64,000 bases of DNA from Mya arenaria (taxonomy: Eukaryota; Mollusca; Bivalvia; Myida; Myidae), in NCBI RefSeq assembly GCF_026914265.1, contig NC_069124.1, positions 15,273,088-15,337,087 of the forward strand, written 5' to 3'. Below are positions 13,801 to 45,120 of the stretch, in pieces; positions within the stretch are counted from its first letter, which is position 1, and each line of letters starts with the position of its first letter. Under the pieces are notes generated by a model. The model worked only from the letters and a program-made list of their open reading frames with translations. It made no database searches and was not told where the DNA came from. Made by a program: the position numbers and the translations under genes.

Positions 13801-16800
13801 TAAATGAATGCAAATATGGATTAACAAACAAAATACATCAAAATAAATTGACTTTATATGCATTGATAAAGGTACATCTAAAATATACACTAAACGGGGG
13901 ATCCTTCAAAGGGAAAAACTATTTCCAAAACTTTAAAATATAAGTTATGGCTGGATTTAAACTGTTAATTAATAGTTATGAAAATTTATATAATGTCATC
14001 GCTTTCTATGACAATTGTAAGACTCATAAGCACACATTAGACCAATAGGCCAATATAAAATGACCAAATTAATAACATCATACTATAATAAAAGACGTGT
14101 CGGTTGTAAGTGTGTGAAATGACAATAACCGTCCACTTTGTCTAACCGTATAAGGTCATTCGGTCGTCATGATGCCTGTTGTAGGTGTCGAGATAAAACT
14201 TGAGTCAGGGACATCGCCAAATTCGGGAATGGTAAAGGTTTCTGTTAGCGGTGAATGGGGCGTTATCTGCGATATGAACTGGACTAATATGGACGCCAGG
14301 GTAGCCTGTCGGCACTTGGGTTTTAAAGATGGTTATGCTGGTACCAAGGTTATCAAATCAATAGGAACAGGTACAATACTAACAAAATGGTTCTCTTTTA
14401 GAAGTGATTTTAATAATTCAGGCATGACTGTTTTTTATTCAAATCAGTTCTGTTTTTTTTTTAAATAGCATTTAATGATAATGTTTAAATCAATGAGTGA
14501 AAATTTCAACAACTAGTATGTTTTAATTACGTATGTGACCAACATCTTAAATGGTGGTTTGATCTTATATGTGTGTTCAAAGTCTTGTTTTGTTAGGGCG
14601 TTTATGGTTGTACAACATTGATTGTACTGGGGTAGAGCAGTCTATTTTCTCCTGCCCGGCACATTTCAATGTTACGAACCAACAGTACAATGCTTACTGC
14701 ATGCCGTACGTTTTCTGTTCAAAAAAAGGTACGGTCAATTTTGCATTTGTTCAAGTTAACGAAATGAACTGTATGATATATTGCACAAGATAAGCTTACT
14801 ACTGCATCTGTTTAGTTTGCTCAAAATTGAAGCTTATGATTAGAAAATGAGGGTCTGACAAAGAACCCCTAGTCTGGAACGTTCCGGTGGCTATAGATGA
14901 AGCAGAAGGATTGTGTATTTATACATTTTATATGTTTAGCAAATATACGAATTTGCGATTAAAAACCCCTTATTAACATGAATTCATTGATGTAAAAACA
15001 TAATTCATTAATACGAATGTATATTTCTTAATTGTTGCAATATGCGTTTATATGAAATTATAATTAATTATCAAAATGGTAAAGTCGTTGCTACTTTCTT
15101 TTCACATCACTATTATCGTTACCAGTTCGTCTCCAACCAAATGTGACATTTGGCGCAGTTCAAGTATGGGACAGGGATAACTATCACCTTGTGTGTGCGG
15201 AAGGTTTTGATGATCTTGCTGCACAAGCAGTGTGTCGATCTCTTGGGTTCGCCTACGGGACAAGCATATGCTGCTCCGCTTTCGGAAGGATGGAATACAG
15301 CATTATTTATAGCAATGTTAAATGTACTGGTATCGAGTCAGATTTACTCGAATGCGATTATGTTAAATACATTCCAAACTGTACAAGTGGACATTACGCC
15401 TCTGTAGCGTGCTCAAATAATCCTAAAAATGAAGGTATGTTGAAGCTTTTTTGTCGTTCACACGTTTGATCATTCAATCGCATACAGTTTGTTACTTGAA
15501 TGAATTTCTAAATTGTCACTCATATGTTTCTGTTTAGAAACGACTGAAACAGTTCACAATTGTCTTCTTATCAAACGTCTGATAGAGTTTGAATCATGTT
15601 TGTTCGGAATGCGATGGTATGCAGTTGTTCGTGTTAGTTGAATTGTTGATTACTCAATATGTAGTTGTCTTTACCTGTTTTTCATAAACAACTGAGTCTC
15701 AAAGCATTCTTTACAGATTATGAATTAAAGATACATCCATCTGGAAAAGTAACCACTAGACATTTTGATAATTCGGGCTTTATCTGCGCTAATGGTTTTG
15801 ACGATAAAGAAGCGACAGTTATTTGCAAGGAGATGGAATATAAAGGTGGATCTGCGTACTTCCATTCAAGGCATACGAAATATTCAACAGTCCCACTTCT
15901 AGGTAAAACAAATATTTTACTATAATGTAATTCCGAATGAGAAGAACGGTTTCCGTTTCAAATATATCTCGGAGTTTGGTTATCATTGATGATTTACTGT
16001 TTATATAAAACTCATTCTGTATGATAAAATGTTTCCAGTATAAAACAGAATAGAGTTAATATATCGATTTCATTATTTTAGAAAAAAAAAAACACATTTC
16101 AAAATGTTTGTTTATTTCAATAATATTCTAGGAGTTCCATGGTTAGCAAATATTGCTTGCAAGGGAACCGAAAAGAATCTAGGAAAATGTGGAAAAATCT
16201 ATTGGGGCTCAGTTGGTTCTTGCGATAATAACAGAATACCTGCAGTTTACTGTTACAACAAATCGGGTACATACGTTTTTTGTTGTTGAGCTTAAGCTTA
16301 GTTTAGGTCATGCGTACCTAAGCATATGTCTAGCTTAGGCTGCTCTAGATTTTTTTACCAATGGTTCTTAACCTTATTTCTGGATACGGGTATTTCAGCA
16401 AAAGTTAGGCTTTGGCTGCTCAATGTTAATATTTTATGCTACGAGTTTTTAACAGTTAAGGCTAAGCTAACTTAACATTGTTCTAGGCTACTTTATTTAA
16501 GCTTTGTATAGACGGTTGTGTATTTAAGTTTTGTTTAAGTTAGGCTTCCGTATTTCTAATTTTATTCTAGCTAACAGGTACTTATCATAGGCTCACATTT
16601 AGCTATATTTATCTGATTGTTCATTATGGGAAAGAACGCTTGCATTTGGCTCTAAGTATTTGAGGCCACAGATATAAACGAGTTAAAGCGCATGCTTGTG
16701 TTGAAGCATGCCTCGTCTGCGGCCATCTCGATTTCTTGCATACTTTGAATATTAATTATGTTTATAGTAAAGTCAAAATCTGATCTTCATGACCAATGCC

Positions 16801-17592: not shown

Positions 17593-18100
17593 TTCCATGT
17601 ATTGTGCTTTTTAAAAATTCGACATAATAGCACCCGTTTGATTATTTTTCTAGTAATTTTCAGAATACTATCCATGCCTGGAACTCATAGGACCATGCGT
17701 CATTAAAATACGATTGGGCACACTCTAAACATGTTAAGAGTTTGCAATCAACAGGAATAAAAGTATAGTTTTACATACAATTAGAATAAGAGTTGATCTA
17801 CAGTGATTTAAGTTTCTGCACGCATGTAGACTACTTACTCAAGGGTTCAATAAACGAATGGTTTAAGAAATGCCCAATAGATACCGCTTTTTTTAATTGA
17901 GTTTTCCATATGATGATGTATCAAATGTGTAAAAGTATAGTTTTACATACAATAAGAATAAGAGTTATTCTACAGTGAGCTCAGTGTCTGCACGCATGTA
18001 GACTACTTACTCAAGGGTTTATATAAACAAATGGTTAAAAGAAATGATTAATTATATAATTTATAAAGAAATGCCCAGTAAATACCGCTTAGTTTAATTT
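17593..18100 (+). other. SRCR gene 3' end with duplicated poly(A) region
   Basis: An AATAAA at 17756-17761 and another at about 17849 follow the stop codon. A ~170-bp block starting 'AAAAGTATAGTTTTACATAC' occurs twice (about 17758-17905 and 17930-18098), so the poly(A) region is tandemly duplicated. Which site is used cannot be told from sequence. Confidence 0.55.
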
Positions 18101-24119: not shown

Positions 24120-27100
24120 ATGGTTGAAGGTAGTACCCAAGAAAGTACATTTACAAGTAAGTAAAATCACTGAAAATTAATTCCATGAATTGAACTGTCA
24201 TATCATAATCTCAGTGCTTAGTCTGTTTGGAAATATGCTTGGAATAATTTTTATAAACTGATAATTTATCTAATAACAGACACTGTGTTTGATTTATTAC
24301 ATTGAACTGCTATTAGATAAATTTTCAGTTTGTGTTTGATATCTACCAATGCCATAAATGCATAATTTTGTTCCTGTTGTGAATGATAAGAAATGTTGAG
24401 AACATAATACCTTCTGCATGTGAACAGTTTTTCTGTGTCTGTTTGTATGTAGGAAGTATTTTGTTTTCAGGATTATTTCAACATTGTTGATGTGGATGAA
24501 ATGTGCACTTAGCCATGCTTTTAATGGAATGAAAAATGTAAAAAACTAACAAGCAATATGTGCAGTTTTGTTAATAAAATGTTTTGTTTTAGAGTTGTGA
24601 GGAGTAACCTAGCCTATATAACCTGAAGCCTACCCAATATGCAGTGTGTTCTGCTCTGTCAATAACAAGTAAGTAATTTCACCAAATTTCATCAGAAACA
24701 AATCTCAAAGTTGCAATGAACAGTAAAGTTAACTCATCTTGGTACTTTAATATACTGAAACACTGAACCAACATGATTTGATTTTGCTCTTTTAACTTAT
24801 TTCACATTATGGTAGCAAAATAACAGCTATGTGTCAAAGAGATTCATGACATTTAGCATTTGTCATACATTTCACTCATTCAGTTGTCAAACCAAATGCT
24901 AAGTGTCAAATAGATTTATGATATTTAGCATGTGTCATACATTTCACTATATTATTTGTCAAACCGAAAGATGAATGTCAAATTATTTACACATGCTTAG
25001 CAGTTTATCATAAACTTTACTCATTTTATTTGTCAAACCAAAAGATGAACGTCAAATTATTTGAAGATGCTAAGCATCTTATCATACATTTTACTCTTTT
25101 TATGACAAATCGACTCACAAATTTAAGCAAACCATGTGACGATGTACAATTAATTTAGGGTGACGAGCTTTTTGGTTACCTCGCACAGCCCAACTAAAAG
25201 ACTTAAAGTATATCTATAAGTCTTTTAGTTTGGTCGGGCGAGCGAGCCAAAATCTCGTCACCCCAAAATATTTGTACATCGTCACTTTGTGTGCTTAATT
25301 TTGAGATTCAACTAAATCGTTCTAAATTCAATGTAAAAAAAAGTTTCATAAGGGGGGTACTCAGCGTGAAAAAACTACATCGCTTAAACGCAAATGCGCT
25401 TTGGTAGGTATATAGCTAAAAAGCGAATGCGCTATGGTGAAAATCCAAAGTCAAAAATTTTGAAAAATTTGAAAAGTTGTCAAAAAAATCATAATTTTAA
25501 GCACGTTGTTAGTGTACTGCTCTGTCATTTGTAAATCAAAACTGAGAGAATGGTTAATATGTTTTGAGACTAAGCATTTACAACTCACTGAAAATATTCT
25601 TTGGTGGTCAAAGACTTAATAGAAGTTAATTAGCCAGTGTTCATATTTAGTAAATGAAAATTAGTGAGTTGAAGCTTATATTGTTAAGTTTTATTGTATA
25701 TCATCTGGCAGGGAAAACAAGATCATTTAAGATTCATGTTTTTGGTGGCAAACAAATTGAACAAGTATTGTTCTTATTTTACTCATTGATGTTTTCATTT
25801 TTCAACAGAAATGGTTTGTTTTTTCAGCTCTGTATGGCTGGTCTGACCTCAGTGGAAGTTGTTCGTTTAAATGGTTTCGGGACATTGAAGTAAAACAACA
25901 CGAGGTAAAATACAAAGTGCTTATTTATTTTTTAACTTGTTTATCCAGTAGTATATGATAAAAAGTTTTTGAACTTGTTCATCCAGTATTATATGGTACA
26001 TACAACAATAATGTAGAATATTAAATCACTGAGTTGCGGCTTCTCTGAACAAACATCTGTTCACTTTATGTCCACAGTTTTTTGAGAAACAAACAGGGCA
26101 TCTGTTTTCCCAGTTTGTAGATTTTCTCGTTTTGCAGAATGTCCCACCAAGAGTGAAGGGCTGCCTGTTTGCTTCATATTCTCAGTCCTCCTCGCTGATG
26201 ATTTCTGAAGTCCTTACGCAGTCACCCCAGTCTTCAACCTCGGTTTTAACAGGTGATAATGTTTTTGAACCATAGTTCATTGTCATGTCATTGGAGTTGT
26301 TCAGCTGCTCCAGTTCTGACTGTAACTCTGTTTTGAGTACAGCAAGTCTAGCCTCAAGAATGGCAATTCTTTTAATTTTGCGATTAAGTCTCTCCATTGT
26401 ACAGATCATAAATTGCTGTAGGTTTCAAGTTTTGTAATGATATTAAGTATGTGTTACATATTAAATATGCACAAAAATAATGCATTCGATCTGCATTTCA
26501 CAAGTGTAAAACATCACAAATGAATGGTATTTCAATCTACTTTTTTGTCAAACCATATGACATTATTTGTTCATGACATTTAGAAATAGTCATACAATGC
26601 AAATTCTTCTAGTACACAATCGCAAATAAATAATTCTTTCAGTTGTCAAACCAAATGCTAAGTGTCAAATCGATTCATGACACTGAGCATTTATCAAACA
26701 TTTCACTCTATTATTTGTCAAACCAAAAGATGAACGTCAAATTATTTACAGATGCTAAGCAGTTTATCATACATTTCACTTTATTATTTGTCAAACCAAA
26801 AGATGAATGTCAAATTATTTGAAGATGCTAAGCATCTTATCATACATTTTACTCTTTTTATGACAAATCGACTCACAAATTTAAGCAAACCATGTGACGA
26901 TGTACAAATAATTTAGGGTGACGAGCTTTTTGGTTACCTCGTCCAGCCCAACTAAAAGACTTAAAGTATATCTATAAGTCTTTTAGTTTGGTCGGGCGAG
27001 CGAGCCAAAATCTCGTCACTCCAAAATATTTGTACATCGTCACTTTGTGTGCTTAATTTTGAGATTCAAATAAATCGTTCTAAATTCAATGTAAAAAAAA

Positions 27101-27520
27101 GTTTCATAAGGGGGGTACTCAGCGTGAAAAAACTACATCGCTTAAACGCAAATGCGCTTTGGTAGGTATATAGCTAAAAAGCGAATGCGCTATGGTGAAA
27201 ATCCAAAGTCAAAAATTTTGAAAAATTTGAAAAGTTGTCAAAAAAATCATAATTTTAAGCACGTTGTTAGTGTACTGCTCTGTCATTTGTAAATCAAAAC
27301 TGAGAGAATGGTTAATATGTTTTGAAATTAAGCATTTATCATTTTTGTAAAAATCCAATGTTATTAATGAAACCAAAATTTACCAGAGTAAACATTAATT
27401 TGCTATTGTATGTAAGAATGTTTCGTCTTTTACACTGTTTCATTTCATTTTTTTCAGATGAGATGCCATACACAGGGGATCCGACAGAAGACAGCAGACA
27501 GAATTCGTCAATGTATTTGA
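24120..27520 (+). CDS. possible small spliced gene, unrecognised
   Basis: Three pieces bounded by good splice sites join in phase: 24120-24156 (MVEGSTQESTFT, donor GTAAGT), 25828-25904 (LYGWSDLSGSCSFKWFRDIE, after TTTTCAG) and 27458-27520 (MRCHTQGIRQKTADRIRQCI then TGA, after TTTTTTCAG). They would encode about 58 residues with a basic end. A further GT-AG-bounded piece, 24593-24668, would not stay open and may be an alternative or non-coding exon. No domain recognised. The intron before the last exon contains an opposite-strand frame and both introns contain one copy each of a 690-bp direct repeat. A non-coding RNA is equally possible. Confidence 0.3.
24885..25575. repeat. 690-bp direct repeat, copy 1, with fold-back core
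   Basis: Nearly identical to 26640-27335. It begins with short tandem units (~73 bp, containing 'TTTGTCAAACCAAAAGATGA' and 'GATGCTAAGCATC'). The middle is an inverted repeat, about 25109-25312, with outer ends near 'GTGACGATGTACAA' and an inner perfect stem 'AAAAGACTTA...TAAGTCTTTT'. It ends with AT-rich unique sequence. The fold-back core looks like a MITE-type hairpin embedded in the larger duplicated unit. Confidence 0.8.
26027..26409 (-). CDS. unrecognised coiled-coil plus Cys/His-rich frame
   Basis: On the - strand, 26409-26182 encodes MICTMERLNRKIKRIAILEA... and LKTELQSELEQLNNS, a leucine-rich coiled coil followed by an acidic end. Directly beyond it, 26181-26027, the same strand encodes a Cys/His-rich stretch (GGTFCKTRKSTNWENRCPVC, FSKNCGHKVNRC) whose codon use also looks coding. 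Whether the two parts form one product, for example by splicing, cannot be decided. No family recognised. It lies between two 690-bp direct repeats. Confidence 0.35.
26640..27335. repeat. 690-bp direct repeat, copy 2, with fold-back core
   Basis: Matches 24885-25575 with only a few differences by eye. The fold-back core lies at about 26866-27070, with 'GTGACGATGTACAA' at 26893 and its complement ending at 27042. The two copies bracket about 1.07 kb holding a + strand exon candidate and the - strand coiled-coil frame. Confidence 0.8.
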
Positions 27521-28169: not shown

Positions 28170-28760
28170 GATTTGTTTGCTCGTGCCAGCATGGGTCGAC
28201 GAGATTCGTTTCTCACTGTCCTTTATGCGGCGGTTTAAGATGCAAGCCTGTTGTTTTGTCAATGTCTACAAAGTTCAGCTTGAATGAAAATTGAAATCAA
28301 TATTGCAAGATCAAGCACTTTTTTAAAAAAATGTTAGAATGTAGATGCGTTGTGAAATGTACTAGGCTCATTGCATTCTTAGTTTGGTTTCGAAGTGCAA
28401 AACTTCATTCATCACAAACATTCCTCTTGAACGACCGAACATTGATATGTGGCAATGTTTTCGTTCAGCAAAATGATTTGGCAAAAGTAATTTAAAGGCT
28501 AGCATGAGTATGGAGGTGTCGTTAGACCAGCTTAGTATTGGTGTACAGTGCCAATACTAGGAACCGCTCATGTTCACCATGTCACGCTACAGGCAATGAA
28601 AAATAGGGAGTGGCAACCTCTTTGTATCGCCGTGGTCCGACAGTCCACACAGTCTTTACAATGAGAGGGGAAACATAGGCAATCGGATGCTTCTTCCTAA
28701 GTGTGCCTTGTCGAGTAACTGCCTTTGGCGTAGCCTTTATTTTCAAATTTGTGAACAAAT
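28170..28760 (+). repeat. structured direct repeat, copy 1
   Basis: Aligns with 45540-45960 in the same orientation: 'GAGTATGGAGGTGTCGTTAG', 'ACCAGCTTAGTATTGG', 'GGCAATGAAAAATAGGGAGT', 'GGCAACCTC', 'GCAATCGGATGCTT' and 'GTCGAGTAACTGCCTTT'. It contains a clean stem-loop: AGTATTGG, a 9-base loop, then CCAATACT, inside an outer pair CATGAG..CTCATG. No long conserved open frame. It may be a non-coding RNA or a cis-acting region of the virus-like element. It ends about 180 bases before the Harbinger insertion. Confidence 0.6.
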
Positions 28761-28936
28761 AAAACTAGGTTAGGACCACATAATAGGGTTACGATGAAAA
28801 TTAGTTTTCCCTTTTAATGCTTGAAGATAACAGCCACTGGCGTTATACTTAAAAAAAATGGCTCGAAATACACATATCACACAAACATTCAACATTTTGT
28901 CAGCAGCATTTTTCATTTTTCAAAAAAAATACTCAG

Positions 28937-28990
28937 GGTCCGTATTACAGAAGCATCTTAATATTTATTTTAAGTAATATTTTATCCTTG
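28937..28990 (+). repeat. Harbinger left terminal inverted repeat
   Basis: Starts GGTCCGTATTACAGAAGC right after the CAG target duplication. It matches the reverse complement of 43458-43511 closely, with a few small differences. Confidence 0.85.
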
Positions 28991-29307
28991 AATAATTTCC
29001 TTAGGTAAGGAAAAAAAAGAAGATTTTCTTAAGTAGTATTCCTAAAAAATCTTAAGGAAATCGTTCGTAAAATATTCCTTATCTTTATTTTTAACCTTAA
29101 AAAATATCTATCCGCGTTTCTAAGGAACTTCGGTAATTCCGTGTCTAAATATAGAACGGAAATTGGAATTCCAATAGTTCGCCAACTAAATATAGAACCG
29201 GAAGCTGGAATTCCGGTATTTTCCAGCACAAAAATAGAACCGGAATAAGGAAGTGCGCACTAAATATATCGTGCAGACGGCATTTGTCATCGTTTACCTT
29301 TGTAAAT

Positions 29308-32300
29308 ATGGAAAAACAAGAGGTCAAGAAACGTTCTCCGAATTTTTCCCTGCATGATTGTATGCTGTTGGCAGAGGTTATGGGAGGACCAAGCGGAACA
29401 CAAAATCTAACCCGTTACCAATACGTGCATAGAAAGCACACACCCTGTGAGTATATCTGTACAACTAAAATATATCTAAGCAGTAGTCAGTGCCAACTGA
29501 CGGCAACTGTTACAATATTGCATCCTGACTGTACGAAACAGAACGAATGGATACTAAAGGACTAGTGATAAATCATCGCTAAATTATAACTACAGTAACT
29601 TCCAAATTGCATGTATACATGTTTGTATCACAGAGGCAGCAGAGTGCGTTGTTGATTTGACACACCCCTTTGACCACGCCCCCCCCCATTTTATTTTAAA
29701 TCCAAGTCTCATTTATAATGATGGTGAACTTGTTACTATTGATAACTTACAAAAACAATGTTTTTTGGAATTTTTATTCTGTTATCTTTGTAATGTACAA
29801 AGTTAAGATAATCAAAATTCCAACTACACACCCTGCCCCTGTGGTTTGTTCAATAGTCAGACCGAACAGTCGAAATATTGAGACTAGTGTGATCTTATGT
29901 GTGTATCAAAACTTTTTCACATACATTTTTTTTTAGCGTTGTATTAGAAAGTTTTGAATTTAGACACATTGAGTGCATTTTAAAGAGCTACAGACTCACC
30001 TATTCTTATTGTTTTTTTTGTTTTTGTTTAAGCTATTACAACAAAAACCAAGCGGTACATGTGGGAGGAGACCATACCAAAGATGTATAACGCTGGGTCA
30101 GAGTTCCCACGCTCATCCATTGATCTTCTGAAGAAGTGGGACAACTTGGTGCAGAGGCATAAAAACTTATACCAAGATTACATCCAAAATCAACAAAAAA
30201 CTGGTATAATTCATTAAATTCATTAAATGTATTTTTGTTGCTATTCATATTCTATGTTCAGTACACAAAAGTAATGCACTTTATGGATAAAATTGCTGTC
30301 AAAATGGCTTTTCTTTATATAAACTTTTATTCTTCATATTGTGTGTCATATAATTGAAGTGACAATCTTATTCAAAATCAATACATTCACATGTAAAACA
30401 TACATCACTTTTGACTGAAAAACCATACAACTACTTACTAAATAATGAATTTATAGAAAAAATTAAATACTGATAAGGCCAAAAAGAAAATGTTTGTTTA
30501 GGGTAACCTTCCCAAAATTTCTAGGTAGGGTAGGTAGGGATTTTTATTTATTTTTTTTTTTTTTTTCAAAATCTGTCGTAAGTTCAGAGTGTTTTCTTGC
30601 ACATGGCAGTCTTTCCTACATTACTGTCATTGCCTGACTTTGTTTCATCATATAAACAATAATTCTGATTAAAATCTGCATTTATCCGCCCTTCGTTACT
30701 CTCTTTTCGCTAACGAATACTTTTTTTGCTCAGAAACGGAAAAAAAAATAGTTAGGGTCAGCACATTTTTATAGGTAAGGTCGGGTTACCCGAAACAGAC
30801 ATATTTCTTTTTAAGGCCTAACAAGATTTTAACTGTATATTTAATAGCTGAAAGCGCAAAACAATATTAATGATTGATGAACGCTTAAAGATTTACTATG
30901 GTCTACTATAGTCTCACAAAGAAGAAATACCGTGTTTTATGCTTATTTCTTTCAAATTTAACTCGGTACCCTTCAAAAGAACCTTTGTGTTGGATTTGTT
31001 TATAAATACATTTATGACACTAGTAAGGAAAAGCATATGTCATGTGTTTGCAAATTTATCATTTTAATATTGCAACAGTTGATCATGTATCAAAAAATCT
31101 TAATACAAGGAATTACTATTGTTTATCCATTTTTTCGATTATGTTCCACAATGATAATCATTTACACTGCACTTATTCCAGGTGGTGGACCTAATGCTGG
31201 GACCATTGGTCTATTGACAGATGCTGTAATATCTGTAGTTGGGAAAAAAGCCTGCAGCCTAATTGGAATCTCCGCCCAGGCCGGAATGCCAATGGACTCG
31301 GGATTTCTACAGCTGCCCTCCAACAAGTAAACTCATTAATCGTTGCATGTATAGCTGTAATAGTTACCTCCCGACCATATTGAGTGTAACAGATACTGCT
31401 TTTGTTACCATTAAACAGCTAAATACTGGGATTTCTCGCTACCCATTTCTAATGTAAAAGCAGGGTTGGTTTCTTTTGCGATCAGATATGAGATTTTTCA
31501 CCATGTTGATTTCTAGCCTCTTACATTTTAAGCGAGTTGCAAACACCTTAACTTTAGAACCTCTCTTCTTATCCATGTTTCCTTAGTGCATCAGACTAAT
31601 ATTTTCATAGTATCATTCATATATAGAAAGACAACACTGCGATAAATAAAAAAATGCATTCATTCAAGTGTTTGTTATTGCTTATAAAATTGTAAAGATT
31701 AAATAAATAAAGCTAATGACATGTAATAACTAATGGGGTTATCATTTTTTAATTGTTCACCTGCAGCACATGCTCATAGATGAAACATAAATAAGCACTC
31801 AATTCTTCCAGGAGTGGGTGCATTAATAAGTATTAACACTGTACATACAAAGAACTTTTATAAAAAGAATGAAGTTACATATTTTTAACAAATTGTTCAG
31901 GTAGTGAATGCATCTTGATTGATTAAACTGTTTTCATAAATGTTTTATGTATCACAAACTGAACATTTTAATTTCATTGCAATCATAAACCAGAAAACTG
32001 TTTATATTTTTCAGTGTGTCTACAGGCATTTCCACAACTAATGGGAGTGATCTTAACAGGTAAAAGTATGGCTATAGTAAAAGCAACTTTTAAAATAAAT
32101 GTTAGGATTAAGAAACAATATCAATTTGCAAATATACTGTCTGACAGTTAAGTTAATATGTAAACTGGTTATACATATTATCAGTTATCTCATATTGATA
32201 CATTTCTGTTTAGATTGTGATGAAAGCTATCACTATATATAATAAATAGAAAATTTGTATCTAGTTCAAGTGAACAAAGGAAGAGGCCACAAGAACAACA

Positions 32301-33478
32301 ACAACAGGGCTATGTGAAAAGCTGAGAATGCAAATTCAAAATTCAAAATGCAATAATTTTATTGTGTGTTGTTTTTTTCCAACTACTTTAATTGTAAATG
32401 ATATCTGTATTTTATTATTTGTACCAAGTATTTATATCTCCTAAAACCATTACAGTGCATCAACATGGGGAATAAGTGCCAGTTCCAATGCAAGTCTTAG
32501 TGCCAGTGAAGACTTGGTTACAAATTACAGGTAACTTTTCAGGACTGTATCATTTATTATTATTATAAGGAGTTGCCAAAACGGTCAATTTTTGAGAGTG
32601 CATGTTAATGCTGAAATTCACTTGTGTGTGTATATATATTGGTCCAGGGCTGGTCATATTTTTCAATATTGGGTCAGCAAATATGTATACATGTAGTACC
32701 ATTTCAGGGTTTGCTCTCACCAGATATGGTTTCCTTTCCCCTGTATATCCCATAATGGGTCACCTTATAATCTCTGCAACTTATATTATACAATGAAGTA
32801 CAATTATACTTCAATAGTGGTTAAAACTTGCAGCTGTTATGTTCTTCATACATCAATATATTATAAGTCATTTTTCTCAAGCTATTCATTTTTAATGTAA
32901 TGAAATATTTTTTTTCTTTCAGCCCAGTTCAGATGGTGACAGACCTTAATGTGACCAGTGAGACATACAACATGTAAGTAACACATTCATGCCATTTTTT
33001 TTACTGCAAACTGTGTGAATAATGTCTATTCATAAAATGAAGTTGTAAACTTTTCATCAGCACATCATCCAATGATTTCAGGCCATGGCACAATCTAAAA
33101 CAAAGGATAAAAGTTGTCACTGTTAATAAATGAACTGTATATGTATGTACAAAGTAGAAGAAAGTCTCACAATCAATTCTTGTACTGTATTTATCAGTAC
33201 CAAGTTAACATATAATATGTTATTGAATGAAACTTTATACAAAATGCTTATACTTATATGGCAAACCTGTTTCTGTGGTAACTTTGTTTGGGGTGTTCAA
33301 ATCACCTTTAGTGATAGCTCAAGTTTCTTTTTATACTTGTAATTAAAACTGACTTATTGTTTGCAACAGTGACTCAGTGATCTGCACCTGTTCCTGCCAT
33401 ACTGTGATGCAAGGTTTGTGGGAAGAGAAGCTACGGCTCCAGATCAGGGTGCTCAAAAAACAGCTTGGCGAAGAATGA
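29308..33478 (+). CDS. Harbinger MYB/SANT-like DNA-binding protein, left copy
   Basis: Exons 29308-29446, 30033-30203, 31182-31326, 32015-32059, 32456-32530, 32923-32973 and 33370-33478 are GT-AG bounded and join in phase to 735 nt (244 residues). Exons 1-2 form a trihelix MYB/SANT-like domain: RSPNFSLHDCMLLAEVM, TKRYMWEETIPKMYNAG, then DLLKKWDNLVQRHKNLYQDY. The middle is Ser/Thr-rich and low in complexity. The end is a short coiled coil (LWEEKLRLQIRVLKKQLGEE). In Harbinger elements this second protein binds the transposase, carries it to the nucleus and recognises the ends. The frame looks fully intact. The gene is convergent with the transposase exon ending at 33957. Confidence 0.85.
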
Positions 33479-33956
33479 TTATAGCCTCGGATTCATTTGT
33501 ACTTTTAATGTTCAGGTATAAGATCATAATATATTTCACGGAGTGACCACCAAAATCTCTATTTCACAATTGGTGTAGCTCATCTGTGACATATTTGCTT
33601 CTGGGTTTACAATGTGAAATATTTTGCTATCTTACACTGAAATCAACACTTCTTTTATTATATGCATAAATATATGAGATAAAATAATTAAAATTTATTG
33701 GAAGTTTTTCAGGCAACCGGCCAAAATTTAGGCAAATGTAATGTCATTTCAGAATTGACATCATAAAAAGTGTGTACCAGCACTTTGCACGTTCATTTTG
33801 TATATGCATTTCCTTTCAGTAGGAGCTTGTTAAATTTAAAAAATTAAAGAATGGTATCAAAATGTTATTTCACCTATTGAAATATCCTTTTTAATTCATC
33901 GGTTAATCTCTATATATCATTATAGAGGATATAATAAAAAAACTTACATGTACTGC

Positions 33957-35266
33957 TTAAAAGTAGGTGTTGGCGAAGTAATCTCTGTACTGCATACCAT
34001 GTTGAGGAGCAATGTTGTTGTCCATGTTGTTAGCATTGCCGCCGTCATCAATCACGTCTGGCATTGGTATGTTCCGCGCTTTACAGATATTGTGCAAAAC
34101 AGCGCAGGTCAGAACAATTCTGTAATTTAGAGAAACAATGGAATGTTCTTATTCAGAAATTTAAGAACACTACTGTTCAATTTCAGAATAATTATGTTAA
34201 CACCGCAAATAACTTGTTTTCTTTAATGTTTTTGAATTAATGAATTGATACACTTTAATAGTATAGATTTTCAGTGATTTTTTGGGAGATTATTTTTACA
34301 GCCTGTGCCTTGCAATTTGGAAAAAAGGTTCACTTTGGGAAAAATAAACAGGTCACATTGGCTTAAGTAATGGCAAATATACATGTTTTTACCTTTTTAT
34401 GAATACATTATCATGTGAAAGAGTAAGTTTTGTAGAGATTTTGTTCATTTTCAAGAAATTCATTGTTTTTTTTATTTATTAAAGTAGCCTTCATTAATTA
34501 ACTTGGAAAAAATATATGATTTTGGTGGGGGGGGGGGGGAGGGGGGAGAATTACACGAGGGTAAACAGCCTTTAGAAGGCAGTAAATTGCAACCAAAAGA
34601 GCAAAAAAATAAAATAATTTGAAACAAAGCTGTTTCATATTATGTATTGAATCTAATAAAATTAAATGTAGTAAAAACCTAATATGAAAAAATCAGTTGT
34701 ATATTCAGATATTGTTTCAGAAAATGTCTGGTAATCCAGTATGTAAGTAAACATTGAAATCAACAAACCACACTGACCAAAAATAATAATAATACCATAA
34801 ATGTGTTTTTTAAATGGATTGAATTTACAAATATTGTCAATTTAATTTTGTAAATTTGAAAGGGTTCTTTCAACAACATTAAACAAAAAGGCTCCATACA
34901 TTGTCTAAACACAGTATTAAGTGCTTTTTGGTTATTTCAATGTATTAGGATTTGATTAACAGAGTGTTAAATAGTAAATACATGTCAGTACTGGGTGTTT
35001 GTATGTCAAAAGAAATCATTTTTAACTGAATCTTTAATCATATTAAGAGGGGTTAATGCACCCGGTGAAAGGTTGTTTTCATTTTCTAATTTAACATATG
35101 TTTGCATATATATATATAACTGGAACAGTGAGCTCATGAGTTGTATGTTTGACATGTTATGCTGTAACTTTGCTGGACATAACAAATGCAGGAATGAGTT
35201 GAATAAAACAGTATGTGTTCAGTAAATTTTCTGTGTCATGCTTATGTTTGTAACAGTAATGCTCCT

Positions 35267-35310
<44 letters not shown>

Positions 35311-37258
35311 TTTATTTAAAGAAGGTAACACATTAAGACATAGGCATCATATTATAAACAAACATAACACACGACTTATTTACAATGTGGCCTTCTGAAA
35401 GAACATACACACGCACACACACATAAATGCTTAGAATGAAAACGCAAGCATAAATTTATGTTATTTCAAAAGGGTACGTATTAAAATGTTATACGAAAAC
35501 ATAAAAAAACATGAATATAATACATTAATTATAAGATCAATGCCGAACAATACATCAATTTGTACCTAAAGGTTAACAAATCGTATCATTAAAATTTATT
35601 AACTGAGTAAGTAGGACAGTCACACATGTATTTAACACCTTAATCGAGATATATATAATGTAAAAACAATAGTCATGGAATTATGCGTACAATTCTTACA
35701 ACGGTTTTTGCAATTGATGATGTAAAAAGAACTTCTTGCAGCAGGCTTTAAATGTATTTTCCGTGTTCGATTTACGTATTCGTTCTGGTAAAGAGTTCCA
35801 AACTGTCCCGCTGTAGCATGCAAACGAGTGTTTCTTGTATTGAGTTTTATGTCGAATGTGGGCAATGTCTTGTCGCGTAGAAGATCGTAATCCATATCTT
35901 GTATTGTTTGATAACTTTATAATGTCTCTTATATAACTCGGTGTAAGATTGTTAATAGATTTATATACCATAACAGCCGTTTGATATTTGCAACGGTATT
36001 CAAATTGAAGCCATTCTAATTGTTTAAATAATTCATGCGATGGCGTTCTAATAGGCTTAAAGAGAATAATTTTAGCAGCTCTTTTTTGAAGCATGGTTAT
36101 TCGTTTCGTATGCGTTTGCTTGCCTTTCCCCCAAACACTACAACAATAGTCAAACATAGGAAGTATATACGATTTATAAAACAAATGTCTCATTTGATCC
36201 GTTAAAAAGTAATTAAGTCTTTTTAAAAGAGCTATCTTTGCAGTTACTTTCTTGCAGACAAAGTCAACTTGCAGGTTCCATGACAATGATGAATCAATAA
36301 CAATTCCAAGCAATTTCTTCGAAGTTACATTTTCAATAAGTACATTGTCTACGAAATTAAGCTTACACAAATACTTGCTTGTTTTTTAACTAAAAACTTT
36401 CCTTAAAGTTTTGGCCTAAAGTTTTGGCCTATGTATTTTGTCTAGGACACAATAGCTAAAATTTTCAGCTCAATGTCACCATAAAACGTTTGATATAAAC
36501 CTCCAAATCAATAGGGTCACCTACCCATAATCAACATGTCCATCAAGTTCCTGGGCCAAACATGTTCATTGTTTCATTAGGAACTACTCTTCTGACAATG
36601 GCCACATGCCCATACATCAGTTTTGTTTTTGTTTGAAAAAGTGCATGAAACTTAAAAGTATACTTTTTTATGCAATTTTTGTTTTGCATATTACTAATAC
36701 CTGCAAGCTTTTTCTGGCTGCACCCTAATTTCACCATGGAGAACACCGAATCGTCTTTTAAGTTGGCCTATGCCTCTCTCCACCTTGGCTCTAGTAATTT
36801 TATGGGATCTGAAAAAAAAAATATGTATATATATCATTACATATACATTGACGAGTGTAAATAAGATTATTTTCTTACCACTGCCATATCAAAGCAAATG
36901 CACCGTGAGAACATGTATGCATCAGTGTATTCAAAGGAGTTCAGAAAGAAAATAATGAAGAGGGCATTGTTGTTTTTAATTACTTTGATGAAGATATAGG
37001 TTTAGTTATGTCTCGTGAAAGCTTCTAGTGTTACAGATCACCTTATTACATGATTAAATTTTACAATTTTCTTTCAGTGTTGACAAATGTTTCAATAATT
37101 GTTCACTTTGTTTACTATATCAATGTCATGCAGAATAATTACATTTACCTGTTGTATGCTGTTTGGCTACCAGGCTGGGGATTGAGGTATGGGGTAAGTA
37201 GCCACCTTCGCCCAGCATATCCGCTGTCCCCAAGAAGATGTGGGACAATGTAATTAAT
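33957..37258 (-). CDS. PIF/Harbinger (HARBI1-like) transposase, C-terminal exons
   Basis: Three - strand exons join in phase: 37258-37149 (IVPHLLGDSGYAGRRWLLTP, with the second Asp of the DDE triad), 36808-36701 (ITRAKVERGIGQLKRRFGVL, with the catalytic Glu) and 34119-33957 (IVLTCAVLHNICKARNIPMP to the stop YFANTYF). This is the last ~125 residues of a DDE_Tnp_4 nuclease. Exons for the N-terminus (HTH and first Asp) are absent: sequence upstream of 37258 soon becomes the inverted right arm. The intron between the last two exons took a LINE insertion (35265-36390). The copy cannot encode a complete transposase by itself. Confidence 0.8.
35265..36390 (-). mobile_element. 5'-truncated LINE, RT C-terminal end with (TAA)n tail
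   Basis: A - strand frame, 36370-35696, encodes the C-terminal part of a non-LTR retrotransposon ORF2: SKKLLGIVIDSSLSWNLQVD, YKSYILPMFDYCCSVWGKGK, then the typical end RYGLRSS...WNSLPERIRKS. About 390 bases of 3' UTR and a (TAA)n run (35265-35310 on +) follow. The pattern fits the CR1/L2/Jockey-like group. It is dead on arrival (5' truncated) and sits in the spacer of the Harbinger palindrome, present once, so it inserted into the transposase intron or the spacer. Confidence 0.8.
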
Positions 37259-37337
37259 CTGCATGACATTGATATAGTAAACAAAGTGAACAATTATTGA
37301 AACATTTGTCAACACTGAAAGAAAATTGTAAAATTTA
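37054..37337. repeat. small inverted duplication around a transposase exon
   Basis: About 90 bases of intron (37054-37146) recur inverted at 37248-37337, including 'TTACAATTTTCTTTCAGTGT' and 'CAATGTCATGCAG'. The loop between them is the transposase exon with LGDSGY. This hairpin abuts the inner end of the right 6.2-kb arm, so it marks the junction where the large palindrome was made. Confidence 0.85.
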
Positions 37338-38326
37338 TATTTATATATATATATGCAAACATATGTTAAATTAGAAAATGAAAACAACCTTTCACCGGGT
37401 GCATTAACCCCTCTTAATATGATTAAAGATTCAGTTAAAAATGATTTCTTTTGACATACAAACACCCAGTACTGACATGTATTTACTATTTAACACTCTG
37501 TTAATCAAATCCTAATACATTGAAATAACCAAAAAGCACTTAATACTGTGTTTAGACAATGTATGGAGCCTTTTTGTTTAATGTTGTTGAAAGAACCCTT
37601 TCAAATTTACAAAATTAAATTGACAATATTTGTAAATTCAATCCATTTAAAAAACACATTTATGGTATTATTATTATTTTTGGTCAGTGTGGTTTGTTGA
37701 TTTCAATGTTTACTTACATACTGGATTACCAGACATTTTCTGAAACAATATCTGAATATACAACTGATTTTTTCATATTAGGTTTTTAATACATTTAATT
37801 TTATTAGATTCAATACATAATATGAAACAGCTTTGTTTCAAATTATTTTATTTTTTTGCTCTCTTGGTTGCAATTTACTGCCTTCTAAAGGCTGTTTACC
37901 CTCGTGTAATTCTCCCCCCTCCCCCCCCACCAAAATCATATATTTTTTCCAAGTTAATTAATGAAGGCTACTTTAATAAATAAAAAATTTCTTGAAAATG
38001 AACAAAATCTCTACAAGACTTACTCTTTCACATGATAATGTATTCATAAAAAGGTAAATACATGTATATTTGCCATTACTTAAGCCAATGTGACCTGTTT
38101 ATTTTTCCCAAAGTGAACCTTTTTTCCAAATTGCAAGGCACAGGCTGTAAAAATAATCTCCCAAAAAATCACTGAAAATCTATACTATTAAAGTGTATCA
38201 ATTCATTAATTCAAAAACATTAAAGAAAACAAGTTATTTGCGGTGTTAACATAATTATTCTGAAATTGAACAGTAGTGTTCTTAAATTTCTGAATAAGAA
38301 CATTCCATTGTTTCTCTAAATTACAG

Positions 38327-38489
38327 AATTGTTCTGACCTGCGCTGTTTTGCACAATATCTGTAAAGCGCGGAACATACCAATGCCAGACGTGATTGATG
38401 ACGGCGGCAATGCTAACAACATGGACAACAACATTGCTCCTCAACATGGTATGCAGTACAGAGATTACTTCGCCAACACCTACTTTTAA
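38327..38489 (+). CDS. transposase last exon, right-arm copy
   Basis: A mirror copy of 34119-33957: acceptor TTACAG, then IVLTCAVLHNICKARNIPMP to YFANTYF and TAA at 38487-38489. No upstream transposase exons lie on the + strand before it, so this copy is an orphan exon. Confidence 0.8.
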
Positions 38490-38968
38490 GCAGTACATGT
38501 AAGTTTTTTTTATTATACCCTCTATAATGATATATAGAGATTAACCGATGAATTAAAAAGGATATTTCAATAGGTGAAATAACATTTTGATACCATTCTT
38601 TAATTTTTTAAATTTAACAAGCTCCTACTGAAAGGAAATGCATATACAAAATGAACGTGCAAAGTGCTGGTACACACTTTTTATGATGTCAATTCTGAAA
38701 TGACATTACATTTGCCTAAATTTTGGCCGGTTGCCTGAAAAACTTCCAATAAATTTTAATTATTTTATCTCATATATTTATGCATATAATAAAAGAAGTG
38801 TTGATTTCAGTGTAAGATAGCAAAATATTTCACATTGTAAACCCAGAAGCCAATATTTCACAGATGAGCTACACCAATTGTGAAATAGAGATTTTGGTGG
38901 TCACTCCGTGAAATATATTATGATCTTATACCTGAACATTAAAAGTACAAATGAATCCGAGGCTATAA

Positions 38969-41900
38969 TCATTCTTCGCCAAGCTGTTTTTTGAGCACCC
39001 TGATCTGGAGCCGTAGCTTCTCTTCCCACAAACCTTGCATCACAGTATGGCAGGAACAGGTGCAGATCACTGAGTCACTGTTGCAAACAATAAGTCAGTT
39101 TTAATTACAAGTATAAAAAGAAACTTGAGCTATCACTAAAGGTGATTTGAACACCCCAAACAAAGTTACCACAGAAACAGGTTTGCCATATAAGTATAAG
39201 CATTTTGTATAAAGTTTCATTCAATAACATATTATAAGTTAACTTGGTACTGATAAATACAGTACAAGAATTGATTGTGAGACTTTCTTCTACTTTGTAC
39301 ATACATATACAGTTCATTTATTAACAGTGACAACTTTTATCCTTTGTTTTAGATTGTGCCATGGCCTGAAATCATTGGATGATGTGCTGATGAAAAGTTT
39401 ACAACTTCATTTTATGAATAGACATTATTCACACAGTTTGCAGTAAAAAAATTGGCATGAATGTGTTACTTACATGTTGTATGTCTCACTGGTCACATTA
39501 AGGTCTGTCACCATCTGAACTGGGCTGAAAGAAAAAAAATATTTCATTACATTAAAAATGAATAGCTTGAGAAAAATGACTTATAATATATTGATGTATG
39601 AAGAACATAACAGCTGCAAGTTTTAACCACTATTGAAGTATAATTGTACTTCATTGTATAATATAAGTTGCAGAGATTATAAGGTGACCCATTATGGGAT
39701 ATACAGGGGAAAGGAAACCATATCTGGTGAGAGCAAACCCTGAAATGGTACTACATGTATACATATTTGCTGACCCAATATTGAAAAATATGACCAGCCC
39801 TGGACCAATATATATACACACACAAGTGAATTTCAGCATTAACATGCACTCTCAAAAATTGACCGTTTTGGCAACTCCTTATAATAATAATAAATGATAC
39901 AGTCCTGAAAAGTTACCTGTAATTTGTAACCAAGTCTTCACTGGCACTAAGACTTGCATTGGAACTGGCACTTATTCCCCATGTTGATGCACTGTAATGG
40001 TTTTAGGAGATATAAATACTTGGTACAAATAATAAAATACAGATATCATTTACAATTAAAGTAGTTGGAAAAAAACAACACACAATAAAATTATTGCATT
40101 TTGAATTTTGAATTTGCATTCTCAGCTTTTCACATAGCCCTGTTGTTGTTGTTCTTGTGGCCTCTTCCTTTGTTCACTTGAACTAGATACAAATTTTCTA
40201 TTTATTATATATAGTGATAGCTTTCATCACAATCTAAACAGAAATGTATCTGTATGAGATAACTGATAATATGTATAACCAGTTTACATATTAACTTAAC
40301 TGTCAGACAGTATATTTGCAAATTGATATTGTTTCTTAATCCTAACATTTATTTTAAAAGTTGCTTTTACTATAGCCATACTTTTACCTGTTAAGATCAC
40401 TCCCAATAGTTGTGGAAATGCCTGTGGACACACTGAAAAATATAAACAGTTTTCTGGTTTATGATTGCAATGAAATTAAAATGTTCAGTTTGTGATACAT
40501 AAAACATTTATGAAAACAGTTTAATCAATCAAGATGCATTCACTACCTGAACAATTTGTTAAAAATATGTAACTTCATTCTTTTTATAAAAGTTCTTTGT
40601 ATGTACAGTGTTAATACTTATTAATGCACCCACTCCTGGAAGAATTGAGTGCTTATTTATGTTTCATCTATGAGCATGTGCTGCAGGTGAACAATTAAAA
40701 AATGATAACCCCATTAGTTATTACATGTCATTAGCTTTATTTATTTAATCTTTACAATTTTATAAGCAATAACAAACACTTGAATGAATGCATTTTTTTT
40801 ATTTATCGCAGTGTTGTCTTTCTATATATGAATGATACTATGAAAATATTAGTCTGATGCACTAAGGAAACATGGATAAGAAGAGTGGTTCTAAAGTTAA
40901 GGTGTTTGCAACTCGCTTAAAATGTAAGAGGCTAGAAATCAACATGGTGAAAAATCTCATATCTGATCGCAAAAGAAACCAACCCTGCTTTTACATTAGA
41001 AATGGGTAGCGAGAAATCCCAGTATTTAGCTGTTTAATGGTAACAAAAGCAGTATCTGTTACACTCAATATGGTCGGGAGGTTACTATTACAGCTATACA
41101 TGCAACGATTAATGAGTTTACTTGTTGGAGGGCAGCTGTAGAAATCCCGAGTCCATTGGCATTCCGGCCTGGGCGGAGATTCCAATTAGGCTGCAGGCTT
41201 TTTTCCCAACTACAGATATTACAGCATCTGTCAATAGACCAATGGTCCCAGCATTAGGTCCACCACCTGGAATAAGTGCAGTGTAAATGATTATCATTGT
41301 GGAACATAATCGAAAAAATGGATAAACAATAGTAATTCCTTGTATTAAGATTTTTTGATACATGATCAACTGTTGCAATATTAAAATGATAAATTTGCAA
41401 ACACAAGACATATGTTTTTCCTTACTAGTGTCATAAATGTATTTATAAACAAATCCAACACAAAGGTTCTTTTGAAGGTAACCGAGTTAAATTTGAAAGA
41501 AATACGCATAAAACACGGTATTTCTTCTTTGTGAGACTATAGTAGACCATAGTAAATCTTTAAGCGTTCATCAATCATTAATATTGTTTTGCGCTTTCAG
41601 CTATTAAATATACAGTTAAAATCTTGTTAGGCCTTAAAAAGAAATATGTCTGTTTCGGGTAACCCGACCTTACCTATAAAAATGTGATGACCCTAACTAT
41701 TTTTTTTTCCGTTTCTGAGCAAAAAAAGTATTCGTTAGCGAAAAGAGAGTAACGAAGGGCGGATAAATGCAGATTTTAATCAGAATTATTGTTTATATGA
41801 TGAAACAAAGTCAGGCAATGACAGTAATGTAGGAAAGACTGCCATGTGCAAGAAAACACTCTGAACTTACGACAGATTTTGAAAAAAAAAAAATAAAAAA

Positions 41901-43140
41901 AATAAAAATCCCTACCTACCCTACCTAGAAATTTTGGGAAGGTTACCCTAAACAAACATTTTCTTTTTGGCCTTATCAGTATTTAATTTTTTCTATAAAT
42001 TCATTATTTAGTAAGTAGTTGTATGGTTTTTCAGTCAAAAGTGATGTATGTTTTACATGTGAATGTATTGATTTTGAATAAGATTGTCACTTCAATTATA
42101 TGACACACAATATGAAGAATAAAAGTTTATATAAAGAAAAGCCATTTTGACAGCAATTTTATCCATAAAGTGCATTACTTTTGTGTACTGAACATAGAAT
42201 ATGAATAGCAACAAAAATACATTTAATGAATTTAATGAATTATACCAGTTTTTTGTTGATTTTGGATGTAATCTTGGTATAAGTTTTTATGCCTCTGCAC
42301 CAAGTTGTCCCACTTCTTCAGAAGATCAATGGATGAGCGTGGGAACTCTGACCCAGCGTTATACATCTTTGGTATGGTCTCCTCCCACATGTACCGCTTG
42401 GTTTTTGTTGTAATAGCTTAAACAAAAACAAAAAAAACAATAAGAATAGGTGAGTCTGTAGCTCTTTAAAATGCACTCAATGTGTCTAAATTCAAAACTT
42501 TCTAATACAACGCTAAAAAAAATGTATGTGAAAAAGTTTTGATACACACATAAGATCACACTAGTCTCAATATTTCGACTGTTCGGTCTGACTATTGAAC
42601 AAACCACAGGGGCAGGGTGTGTAGTTGGAATTTTGATTATCTTAACTTTGTACATTACAAAGATAACAGAATAAAAATTCCAAAAAACATTGTTTTTGTA
42701 AGTTATCAATAGTAACAAGTTCACCATCATTATAAATGAGACTTGGATTTAAAATAAAATGGGGGGGGGCGTGGTCAAAGGGGTGTGTCAAATCAACAAC
42801 GCACTCTGCTGCCTCTGTGATACAAACATGTATACATGCAATTTGGAAGTTACTGTAGTTATAATTTAGCGATGATTTATCACTAGTCCTTTAGTATCCA
42901 TTCGTTCTGTTTCGTACAGTCAGGATGCAATATTGTAACAGTTGCCGTCAGTTGGCACTGACTACTGCTTAGATATATTTTAGTTGTACAGATATACTCA
43001 CAGGGTGTGTGCTTTCTATGCACGTATTGGTAACGGGTTAGATTTTGTGTTCCGCTTGGTCCTCCCATAACCTCTGCCAACAGCATACAATCATGCAGGG
43101 AAAAATTCGGAGAACGTTTCTTGACCTCTTGTTTTTCCAT
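38969..43140 (-). CDS. Harbinger MYB/SANT-like DNA-binding protein, right copy
   Basis: A mirror copy of the left gene: start ATG at 43140, stop near 38969, seven exons at mirrored positions. Small differences exist, for example an Asn to Ile change in the fourth exon (GISTTIGS versus GISTTNGS), and the splice sites that I checked are kept. Two intact MYB-like genes in one element are unusual; together they face inward, each convergent with a transposase tail. Confidence 0.8.
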
Positions 43141-43457
43141 ATTTACAAAGGTAAACGATGACAAATGCCGTCTGCACGATATATTTAGTGCGCACTTCCT
43201 TATTCCGGTTCTATTTTTGTGCTGGAAAATACCGGAATTCCAGCTTCCGGTTCTATATTTAGTTGGCGAACTATTGGAATTCCAATTTCCGTTCTATATT
43301 TAGACACGGAATTACCGAAGTTCCTTAGAAACGCGGATAGATATTTTTTAAGGTTAAAAATAAAGATAAGGAATATTTTACGAACGATTTCCTTAAGATT
43401 TTTTAGGAATACTACTTAAGAAAATCTTCTTTTTTTTCCTTACCTCAGGAAATTATT

Positions 43458-43511
43458 CAAGGATAAAATATTACTTAAAATAAATAGTAAGATGCTTCTG
43501 TAATACGGACC
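43458..43511 (-). repeat. Harbinger right terminal inverted repeat
   Basis: Ends CTTCTGTAATACGGACC, the complement of the left end, followed by CAG at 43512-43514, the second copy of the 3-bp target duplication. Confidence 0.85.
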
Positions 43512-43514
43512 CAG

Positions 43515-45120
43515 ATGTACAAAAATAATGCAAAACATGAACAGCAAATTCACAAATTCTGCTGTGTTGAAATTTAAAAAAAATCAAACATGAGATTGTA
43601 TGAAAAAGCTTCTTTTTTATTTTCAAACATGTTAAATCTCACGATCATAAGCCATATGTACAAAAATAATGCAACTCTGAATTGTAATTGCATGCTCTCA
43701 ACAGCAAAATATGCATCGAAAATTGCGAAAAATTGTGAAAAATCTAGAAGTTGACGAGGGATCTCAAGATTTCAATAAAACGAACTATAGGCTTTATTTC
43801 ACACAATATTTCATGAAAAAAAAATCAAATCTTCATAATGTTCAAAATCTAGAAATTAACGAGGTATCTCAAGATTTCATAAAAAAATTATAGGCTCCAT
43901 TTATTCAAAATTATAGGCTCATGCAATTCTTTCAAAAAAAATAACAAATTTCAATATTGTGAACTCGCGTCCATGTAGCACGCAGAAAATGTTCTTGCTT
44001 CAAAAAACTAGCTCCGACATGAAATTTTCATATTCAATCTTTTTTTTTTTCAAACAATTGAGATATCACAATCATAAGCCATATGGACAAAAATAATGCA
44101 ACTCTGAATTTAATTTCATGCTCTCAACAAAAAATATGCATCGAAAATTGTGAAAAATTGTGAAACTCTAGAAATTAACGTGGGATCTCAAGATATCAAA
44201 AAACGAACTATAGGCTTCATTCTTCAAAAATTATAGGCTTCATAAAACTCACTCAAACACTCAGATTTCAAAACCTTCAACATTTGTGCTCTGAAACTAG
44301 CGTTCACACCAGTTTTCATGAGAAAAAAAAATTACAAATTTCACAATCATAAGCCATATGCACAAGAAAATGCAGCTAAGTCCATGAAACTTGAAAAATT
44401 GGTATCTTATTGAAACTGGCGTTCACACAAAATTTCAAAAAAAGTTATAGGCTTCATTTATTCAAAAAATTATAGGCACATGCAAATCTCACAGATCTCA
44501 CAATCATAAGCCATATGCACAAAAAAAATGCAGCATCAAGTCCATGAAACATGAAAAATTGATATCTTTCTGAGACTGGCGTTCACACAAGATCTCATGA
44601 AAAAAATCAAATCTTCATATTGTTGAAAATCTAGAAATTAACGCGGGATCTCAAGATTTCAAAAAAAAAATATAGGCTTCATTTATTCAAAAAAATTATA
44701 GGCTCATGCAAATCTTTCAAAAAATTATAGGCACATGCAAATCTCAAAAAAAATACAATTTTCACAATCATAAGCAATATGCACAAAAATGCAGCATCAA
44801 GTCCATGAAACTTGAAAAATTGATATCTTTCTGAGACTGGCGTTCACACAAGATTTCATGAAAAAAATAAAATCTTCATAATGATCAAATTCAACAAATC
44901 AACATTTGCAGCAAATCTCACAGATCTCACAATCATAAGCCATATGCACAAATTCCACCAAGTCCATGAAACTTGAAAAAAATGATATTTTGCTGAAACT
45001 GATTTCACATAATCTTCATAGAAAAACTACTTCATTCACAGATTTCAAAATCTCGAGCCATTTGTACAAATATAATGCGGAATCAAGTGATAATTCTGGA
45101 ACTATTTCATATGAGCGTAT
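43515..45120. repeat. degenerate ~160-280-bp tandem repeat array
   Basis: About six copies of 'CACAATCATAAGCCATATG' (near 43645, 44068, 44345, 44504, 44764 and 44929) are each followed by A-rich sequence. Recurrent modules are 'AAGTCCATGAAACTTGAAAA', 'TGAGACTGGCGTTCACACAA', 'AAATCTAGAAATTAACG' and 'AAAATTATAGGCTTCAT'. The modules recur in the same order but with variable loss. No open frame of note. The array lies within the virus-like element next to the Harbinger insertion and could be a cis-acting homologous-repeat region. Confidence 0.75.

Follow-up and report, generated by a model that had tools for sequence, protein, structure and literature searches.

The question raised by this locus is how a transposon whose relatives carry terminal repeats of only 24 bp came to be a palindrome of more than 14 kb. 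The element in question lies in a 64,000-nucleotide stretch of the Mya arenaria genome (assembly GCF_026914265.1, contig NC_069124.1, positions 15,273,088 to 15,337,087, forward strand), here called the window, and belongs among the PIF/Harbinger-related transposons. At window positions 28937-43511 it forms a real palindrome; the type of transposon is known, and rearrangements of this sort are uncommon. It occupies a single insertion site, and by a slight margin it fits best with having been made there, by fold-back copying or repair of an ordinary element that had inserted first.

Structure and insertion site of the palindrome

The element spans exactly 14,575 bp. Its left arm (28937-35119, plus strand) starts at one of the two end types of the family, termed L, and reads inwards; its right arm (37341-43511, minus strand) is an inverted copy of the left arm that runs out to an L end again. 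The arms are about 99.3% alike. BLAST of 28930-35119 against 43519-37341 gave 99.29% identity over 6,194 columns, and a repeat search recovered the same pairing in pieces, as inverted matches of 500-2,300 bases at 99-100%. Inside the element the arms differ by 24 substitutions and 6 insertion or deletion (indel) events, two of which involve 9 and 5 bases. An earlier note on this DNA, made from the sequence alone, had described two 6.2-kb inverted arms within 28934-43514; the arms are as described, and the span agrees with ours once the CAG triplet counted in at either side is taken off.

Followed from the L end on the left, the element keeps to the sequence of ordinary copies of its family as far as 37240, beyond which the match ends. 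Six bases unseen in ordinary copies come next (37241-37246); after them the sequence is inverted, first over 37145 to 37055 and then, past a gap, from 35119 out to the L end. The first fold-back accordingly lies at 37240-37247, with 37247-37337 being the inverse of 37055-37145 and 101 bases separating the two; in ordinary copies the left member of this inner pair lies between transposase exon pieces, and the right member was recovered by both the repeat search and the junction search. A second, AT-rich join at 37338-37340 connects the inverted copy of 37055 with that of 35119. The arm junction that had been placed at 37340 is correct for the long arms, but it is the second of the two joins. 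The centre of the element (35120-37054) is without a counterpart in the right arm in both the arm alignment and the repeat search. It holds a fragment resembling a long interspersed nuclear element (LINE; 35268-36355, minus strand), which recurs at 97-100% in at least 39 other places among the matches listed and is absent at the same position from the family copies that span that point. Because the sequence turns back after 37240 and runs out to the L end, the palindromic copy has two L ends and no R end. The tandem array of short units that ordinary copies carry near their R end has no match in it.

The outer 24 bp, GGTCCGTATTACAGAAGCATCTTA, are identical on the two sides (28937-28960, plus strand; 43488-43511, minus strand), and this terminal repeat is the one common to the L and R ends of ordinary copies. 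Base 25 differs between the arms, being A in the left arm (28961) and C in the right. CAG stands directly outside the element at 28934-28936 and again at 43512-43514. With CWG as the target motif, a match between the triplets would on its own carry the weight of about a coin toss, and the evidence of empty sites therefore matters. The flanks of the palindrome are part of a dispersed repeat (28334-28936 and 43512-44112), found with the left flank in at least 39 other places at 93-96% (best 40 of 189 candidates). When 603 bases on the left, ending in CAG, and 601 on the right, starting with CAG, were searched against the same assembly, 28 of the 39 listed left-flank paralogues (window excluded) also appeared in the right-flank list (best 40 of 104 candidates), with an overlap of exactly 3 bases between left and right match in every case; the remaining 11 are not among the right-flank matches listed. 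In an alignment of six of the empty sites with the joined flanks, the repeat sequence passes without a break through a single CAG. Since the flanks adjoin at one CAG in these 28 paralogues, the palindrome sits in one insertion with a true 3-bp target duplication. The perfect outer ends, the matching CAG and the two copies of the same end, of L type on both sides, had all been noted before and all stand. A shorter unit of the right-flank query (positions 287-428) recurs near many copies.

Ordinary copies of the family provide the reference for these statements. An L-end search of the assembly listed at least 34 matches, two of them the window's own; assembly counts are lower bounds, as the search scores the best candidates only. 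Twenty stretches were fetched, covering 22 of the 32 non-window matches; seven were extended, and 10 weaker places were left out. The R end, sought with up to two mismatches, is also present in 13 of the 20 loci, and a second, inverted L end was found in none of them. Uninterrupted copies measure 7.8-8.6 kb (L009, L010, L011, L014 and L022). L017 (7.9 kb) has a deletion and an insert, L019 is 5.2 kb, L020 and L021 are 1.2 kb, and four further two-ended copies carry large inserts (C5_37.84, C5_42.2, C7_61.7 and C8_67.7). In the ordinary layout a MYB gene lies behind the L end and the transposase reads inwards from the R side. Beyond the common 24 bp the L and R ends diverge, although they share further words in the same direction, for example TAAAATATTCCTTA and TTTATCCTT, which are AT-rich and come without a chance control. 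Among the places seen, two-ended relatives carry 24-bp repeats and the palindrome occurs only in the window copy. A copy on contig 10 (98%) matches only from 30759 inwards, and no L end was found in it with up to three mismatches.

At the 13 other two-ended loci CWG occurs in 13 left and 12 right flanking triplets, and 9 of the 13 pairs match. The four with unlike triplets are L009, L019, L022 and C5_42.2 (L013 with L030, C5:42.2 Mb); the pairs are CTG and CAG, or involve AAG in L022, and represent mutated or rearranged target duplications. Some other loci show irregularities of their own. At C5:37.82-37.84 Mb (L015 with L029) two L ends in the same direction lie 4.8 kb apart, both behind TACTCCAG, in what looks like a tandem duplication that included the flank. 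The diverged copy L024 carries an L-type terminal repeat twice in one direction, at positions 246 and 494 (248 bases apart). In L010 the short-unit tandem array near the R end occupies element positions 7181-7826, and its length differs between ordinary copies.

Origin of the palindrome

The relative age of the arms was judged against 16 family loci: the contig 10 copy and 15 from the set of 20 with an L end, which excludes L021 (a twin of L020) and the diverged L025-L028. When the 24 arm substitutions were polarised, with at most 13 loci per site, 14 proved to be derived in the right arm and 9 in the left, with 1 undecided; a difference at 28935, which is a base of the target duplication, is kept out of this count. 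Where the other copies do not vary (5,137 sites), the two arms have 21 changes in common, as against 5 in the left only and 12 in the right only; thus the arms separated late in the private history of the window copy. In the same comparison the near copies C5_37.84, C2_37.3 and C10 have 0.54%, 0.55% and 0.70% private changes, respectively, and the arms look younger than these three of the four nearest insertions.

Long palindromes are a known artefact of long reads, and the differences between the arms have a transition to transversion ratio of 6:18, nearer to random errors than to the 72:97, 99:89 and 44:44 of three other copy pairs of the family. An assembly or read artefact, whether a fold-back read or a misjoin of two copies, is nevertheless highly improbable: the right arm ends at the terminal repeat and continues into a flank that adjoins the left flank in the 28 listed paralogues, the arms differ by a 1.9-kb stretch with the LINE-like fragment and by the 6 small indels, and the polarised differences fall on both arms. 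A fold-back within a read, in particular, is very unlikely, as the left flank should then return in inverted form, whereas the right arm in fact ends precisely with the terminal repeat. Even less credible is the fusion of two separate, facing insertions with a CAG match by chance. The CWG motif would give such a match about half the time, and flanking triplets do differ in the four two-ended loci named above; against this, the right flank directly adjoins the left with the 3-base overlap in 28 of the 39 listed paralogues, and the six aligned empty sites agree around the CAG. It is on the empty sites that both of these explanations were rejected.

There remain two accounts that both predict identical termini and a target duplication. 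In the one that we favour, by a narrow preference, an ordinary element of about 8.5 kb, of NuwaI/Harbinger type, would have inserted at a CAG in the dispersed repeat. Copying or repair would later have broken off about 6.5 kb from the L end, at the observed fold-back, turned back with a loop of some 95-101 bases and run outwards over the left part. On reaching the 24-bp terminal repeat, common to L and R ends, the process could have rejoined the right flank, putting a second L end in place of the R end and leaving the flanks untouched. The absence of the centre stretch from the right arm and the presence of the LINE-like fragment in the left part are observed, and this scheme leaves the order of the events behind them free. 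Fold-back joins usually have a short loop and filler bases. L-type subterminal sequence is present on both sides in the window, whereas ordinary copies carry different sequences inwards of the repeat at their two ends. A second genomic copy of the arm junction, as proposed in the earlier note, was searched for without success: among 41 matches, the junction query was covered in full by the window alone. Inverted L-end pairs within 20 kb were likewise absent among 28 L-end places outside the window, as were R-R pairs within 20 kb among the 45 R-end matches listed. A unique junction and the lack of another inverted L pair are as expected of a local event.

The other account holds that the palindrome formed elsewhere, through fold-back or the fusion of two broken sister copies, acquired two L ends in the proper orientation, and was then transposed whole into the CAG with the assistance of a complete helper copy. 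It is a serious contender, if somewhat short of an even chance. The termini are exact and the target duplication is true; with the 24 bp and the further words shared by the L and R ends, an L end may be able to serve both roles. Furthermore, a single rearrangement followed by normal transposition is all that is required, whereas conversion in place needs a second switch exactly at the terminal repeat. mPing, a PIF/Harbinger element, is described as usually excising precisely (PMC2836001), and precise excision would leave no terminal repeat for excision-linked repair in place. Helper copies are conceivable, as judged from the coding sequence: four of the 16 family loci (L009, L011, C8_67.7 and C5_42.2) have all 241 residues of the first transposase exon, no stop and both of the motifs checked. 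The palindrome could move only with help from a complete copy, if two L ends work. Movement as a unit is opposed by the lack of a second copy of the junction or of another L-L element among the places seen, and by arms that appear younger than three near insertions.

Several points weigh against conversion in place in addition to the second switch. Uniqueness is weak evidence because the copy number is low, and a cut-and-paste unit that had moved once would also be single. An ordinary element has not been seen at this position in any individual. Private changes amount to 1.17% in C5_42.2, the fourth nearest copy, and the subfamily is therefore not a clean star; conversion between the arms could make them appear younger than they are; and some arm differences may be sequencing errors, given the 6:18 ratio. 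The difference at base 25 was considered as proof of a switch, the chance of one of the 24 differences falling on this first base inside the terminal repeat being 0.4%, and was retained as weak evidence: the right arm has C there, unlike both the L end (A) and the R end (T). A meeting of two separate gap-repair tracts in mid-element was rejected, as it leaves unexplained why one stops at 37240 and the other at 37145, 95 bases apart. The element had previously been described as inserted as one unit. Insertion at a single site holds; the unit part is unproven, since later replacement of the right part gives an identical duplication. If the palindrome did move whole, one type of end would suffice for excision and insertion in this Harbinger lineage, and a fold-back rearrangement could turn half an element into a new mobile form with two MYB genes.

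Coding capacity and other repeats of the window

The first exon of the transposase encodes 241 residues in L010, where positions 6743-7465 (minus strand) match Pfam DDE_Tnp_4 with an E-value of 3.5e-20; this copy has all 241 residues without a stop, although it lacks the GDSGY motif. In the window only residues 211-241 of that exon remain (37148-37240, minus strand), up to the point at which family homology ends. The first 210 are gone, including the DGTH motif, which presumably holds the first catalytic Asp. An exon piece with the last part of the DDE domain lies at 36700-36807 (minus strand), within an open reading frame (ORF; 36694-36888) whose DDE_Tnp_4 match is below the cut-off (E 7e-4), and the C-terminal exon piece was located by family comparison in both arms (34011-34106, minus strand; 38340-38435, plus strand). 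As it stands, the palindrome encodes no complete transposase.

The two MYB exon pieces are open and identical in the two arms, at 29308-29382 and 30041-30205 (plus strand) on the left and at 43066-43140 and 42244-42408 (minus strand) on the right, and the first of them is conserved as an open piece in family copies. The second, searched as ORF 30032-30217, gave a marginal match to Pfam Myb_DNA-bind_5 (E 2e-4; 21.7 bits against a cut-off of 21.7). Neither the first MYB piece nor the C-terminal transposase piece has a Pfam match on its own, and among eight window ORFs searched at E-values up to 0.1 Pfam returned two sub-threshold matches only; an Rfam search gave 0 matches. Read by eye, the peptide of ORF 35696-36385 resembles the terminal part of a reverse transcriptase, for which Pfam gave no match. 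Of what the earlier note had said about the genes, the Harbinger assignment is borne out by the CWG target and the combination of MYB and DDE transposase, and the loss of the transposase N-terminus by the residues that remain. Its two intact MYB genes are borne out in part, as two open exon pieces per arm.

Elsewhere in the window, a direct repeat of about 705 bases (24876-25580 and 26635-27338), 96% alike, overlaps arrays of 72-74-base tandem units. Inverted pieces at 15335-17600 and 61635-64000 are 79-86% alike and are perhaps two old, facing copies of one repeat family.

Comparison with known systems

The palindrome is a new structural variant of a family that fits the NuwaI (CWG) group of PIF/Harbinger-related elements. 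As described for this group of the PHIS superfamily (PMC4482050), the family has a 3-bp CWG target duplication, short terminal repeats (24 bp here; 12-61 bp in the group) and separate DDE transposase and Myb/SANT genes. The terminal repeat of NuwaI elements is said there to start usually with GGG, a wording that sets no defining bar, whereas it starts with GGTCC here; autonomous candidates average about 4.5 kb, as compared with about 8.5 kb for the ordinary copies; and, unlike the elements described, the window copy is palindromic with two L ends. Within PIF/Harbinger, derivatives in Medicago have been ascribed to abortive gap repair (PMC2213677). They resemble the present case in being defective copies attributed to faulty repair, but they are described as direct deletion derivatives, and the text of that article makes no mention of inverted duplication, palindromes or folding back. 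Judged by titles and the beginnings of abstracts, none of the papers listed by searches of one open-access library deals with a palindromic or fold-back Harbinger.

The likeness to Foldback-type and long-terminal-repeat Mutator-like elements (PMC3310237, PMC4079207, PMC3169594) is in the long terminal inverted repeats, and these elements belong to other transposon families. In such elements long repeats are generally the norm of the family and not the property of a single derivative. Here the two-ended relatives have 24-bp repeats.

The '2RT' copies of Galileo in Drosophila mojavensis offer a further parallel (PMC3573991). In these, internal sequence has been recruited in inverted orientation, lengthening the terminal repeats, in copies without a transposase ORF, and repair or recombination has been proposed as the cause. 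Galileo differs in belonging to the P superfamily, in making 7-bp duplications and in having a longest terminal repeat of 1,260 bp; moreover, '2RT' copies recur in that genome (38 of 170), while the window form, with its 6.2-kb arms, was found once. The window case is a change of the same kind, taken much further and in a different superfamily. Fold-back elements and long terminal repeats are familiar; what a single locus offers here is a view of how a short-repeat transposon turned into a palindrome. The two joins can be compared with the ordinary structure in 13 two-ended relatives and with the empty target in 28 of 39 listed paralogues, and it becomes testable whether the palindrome originated in place through the short terminal repeats or whether two ends of the same type can still be moved by the transposase.

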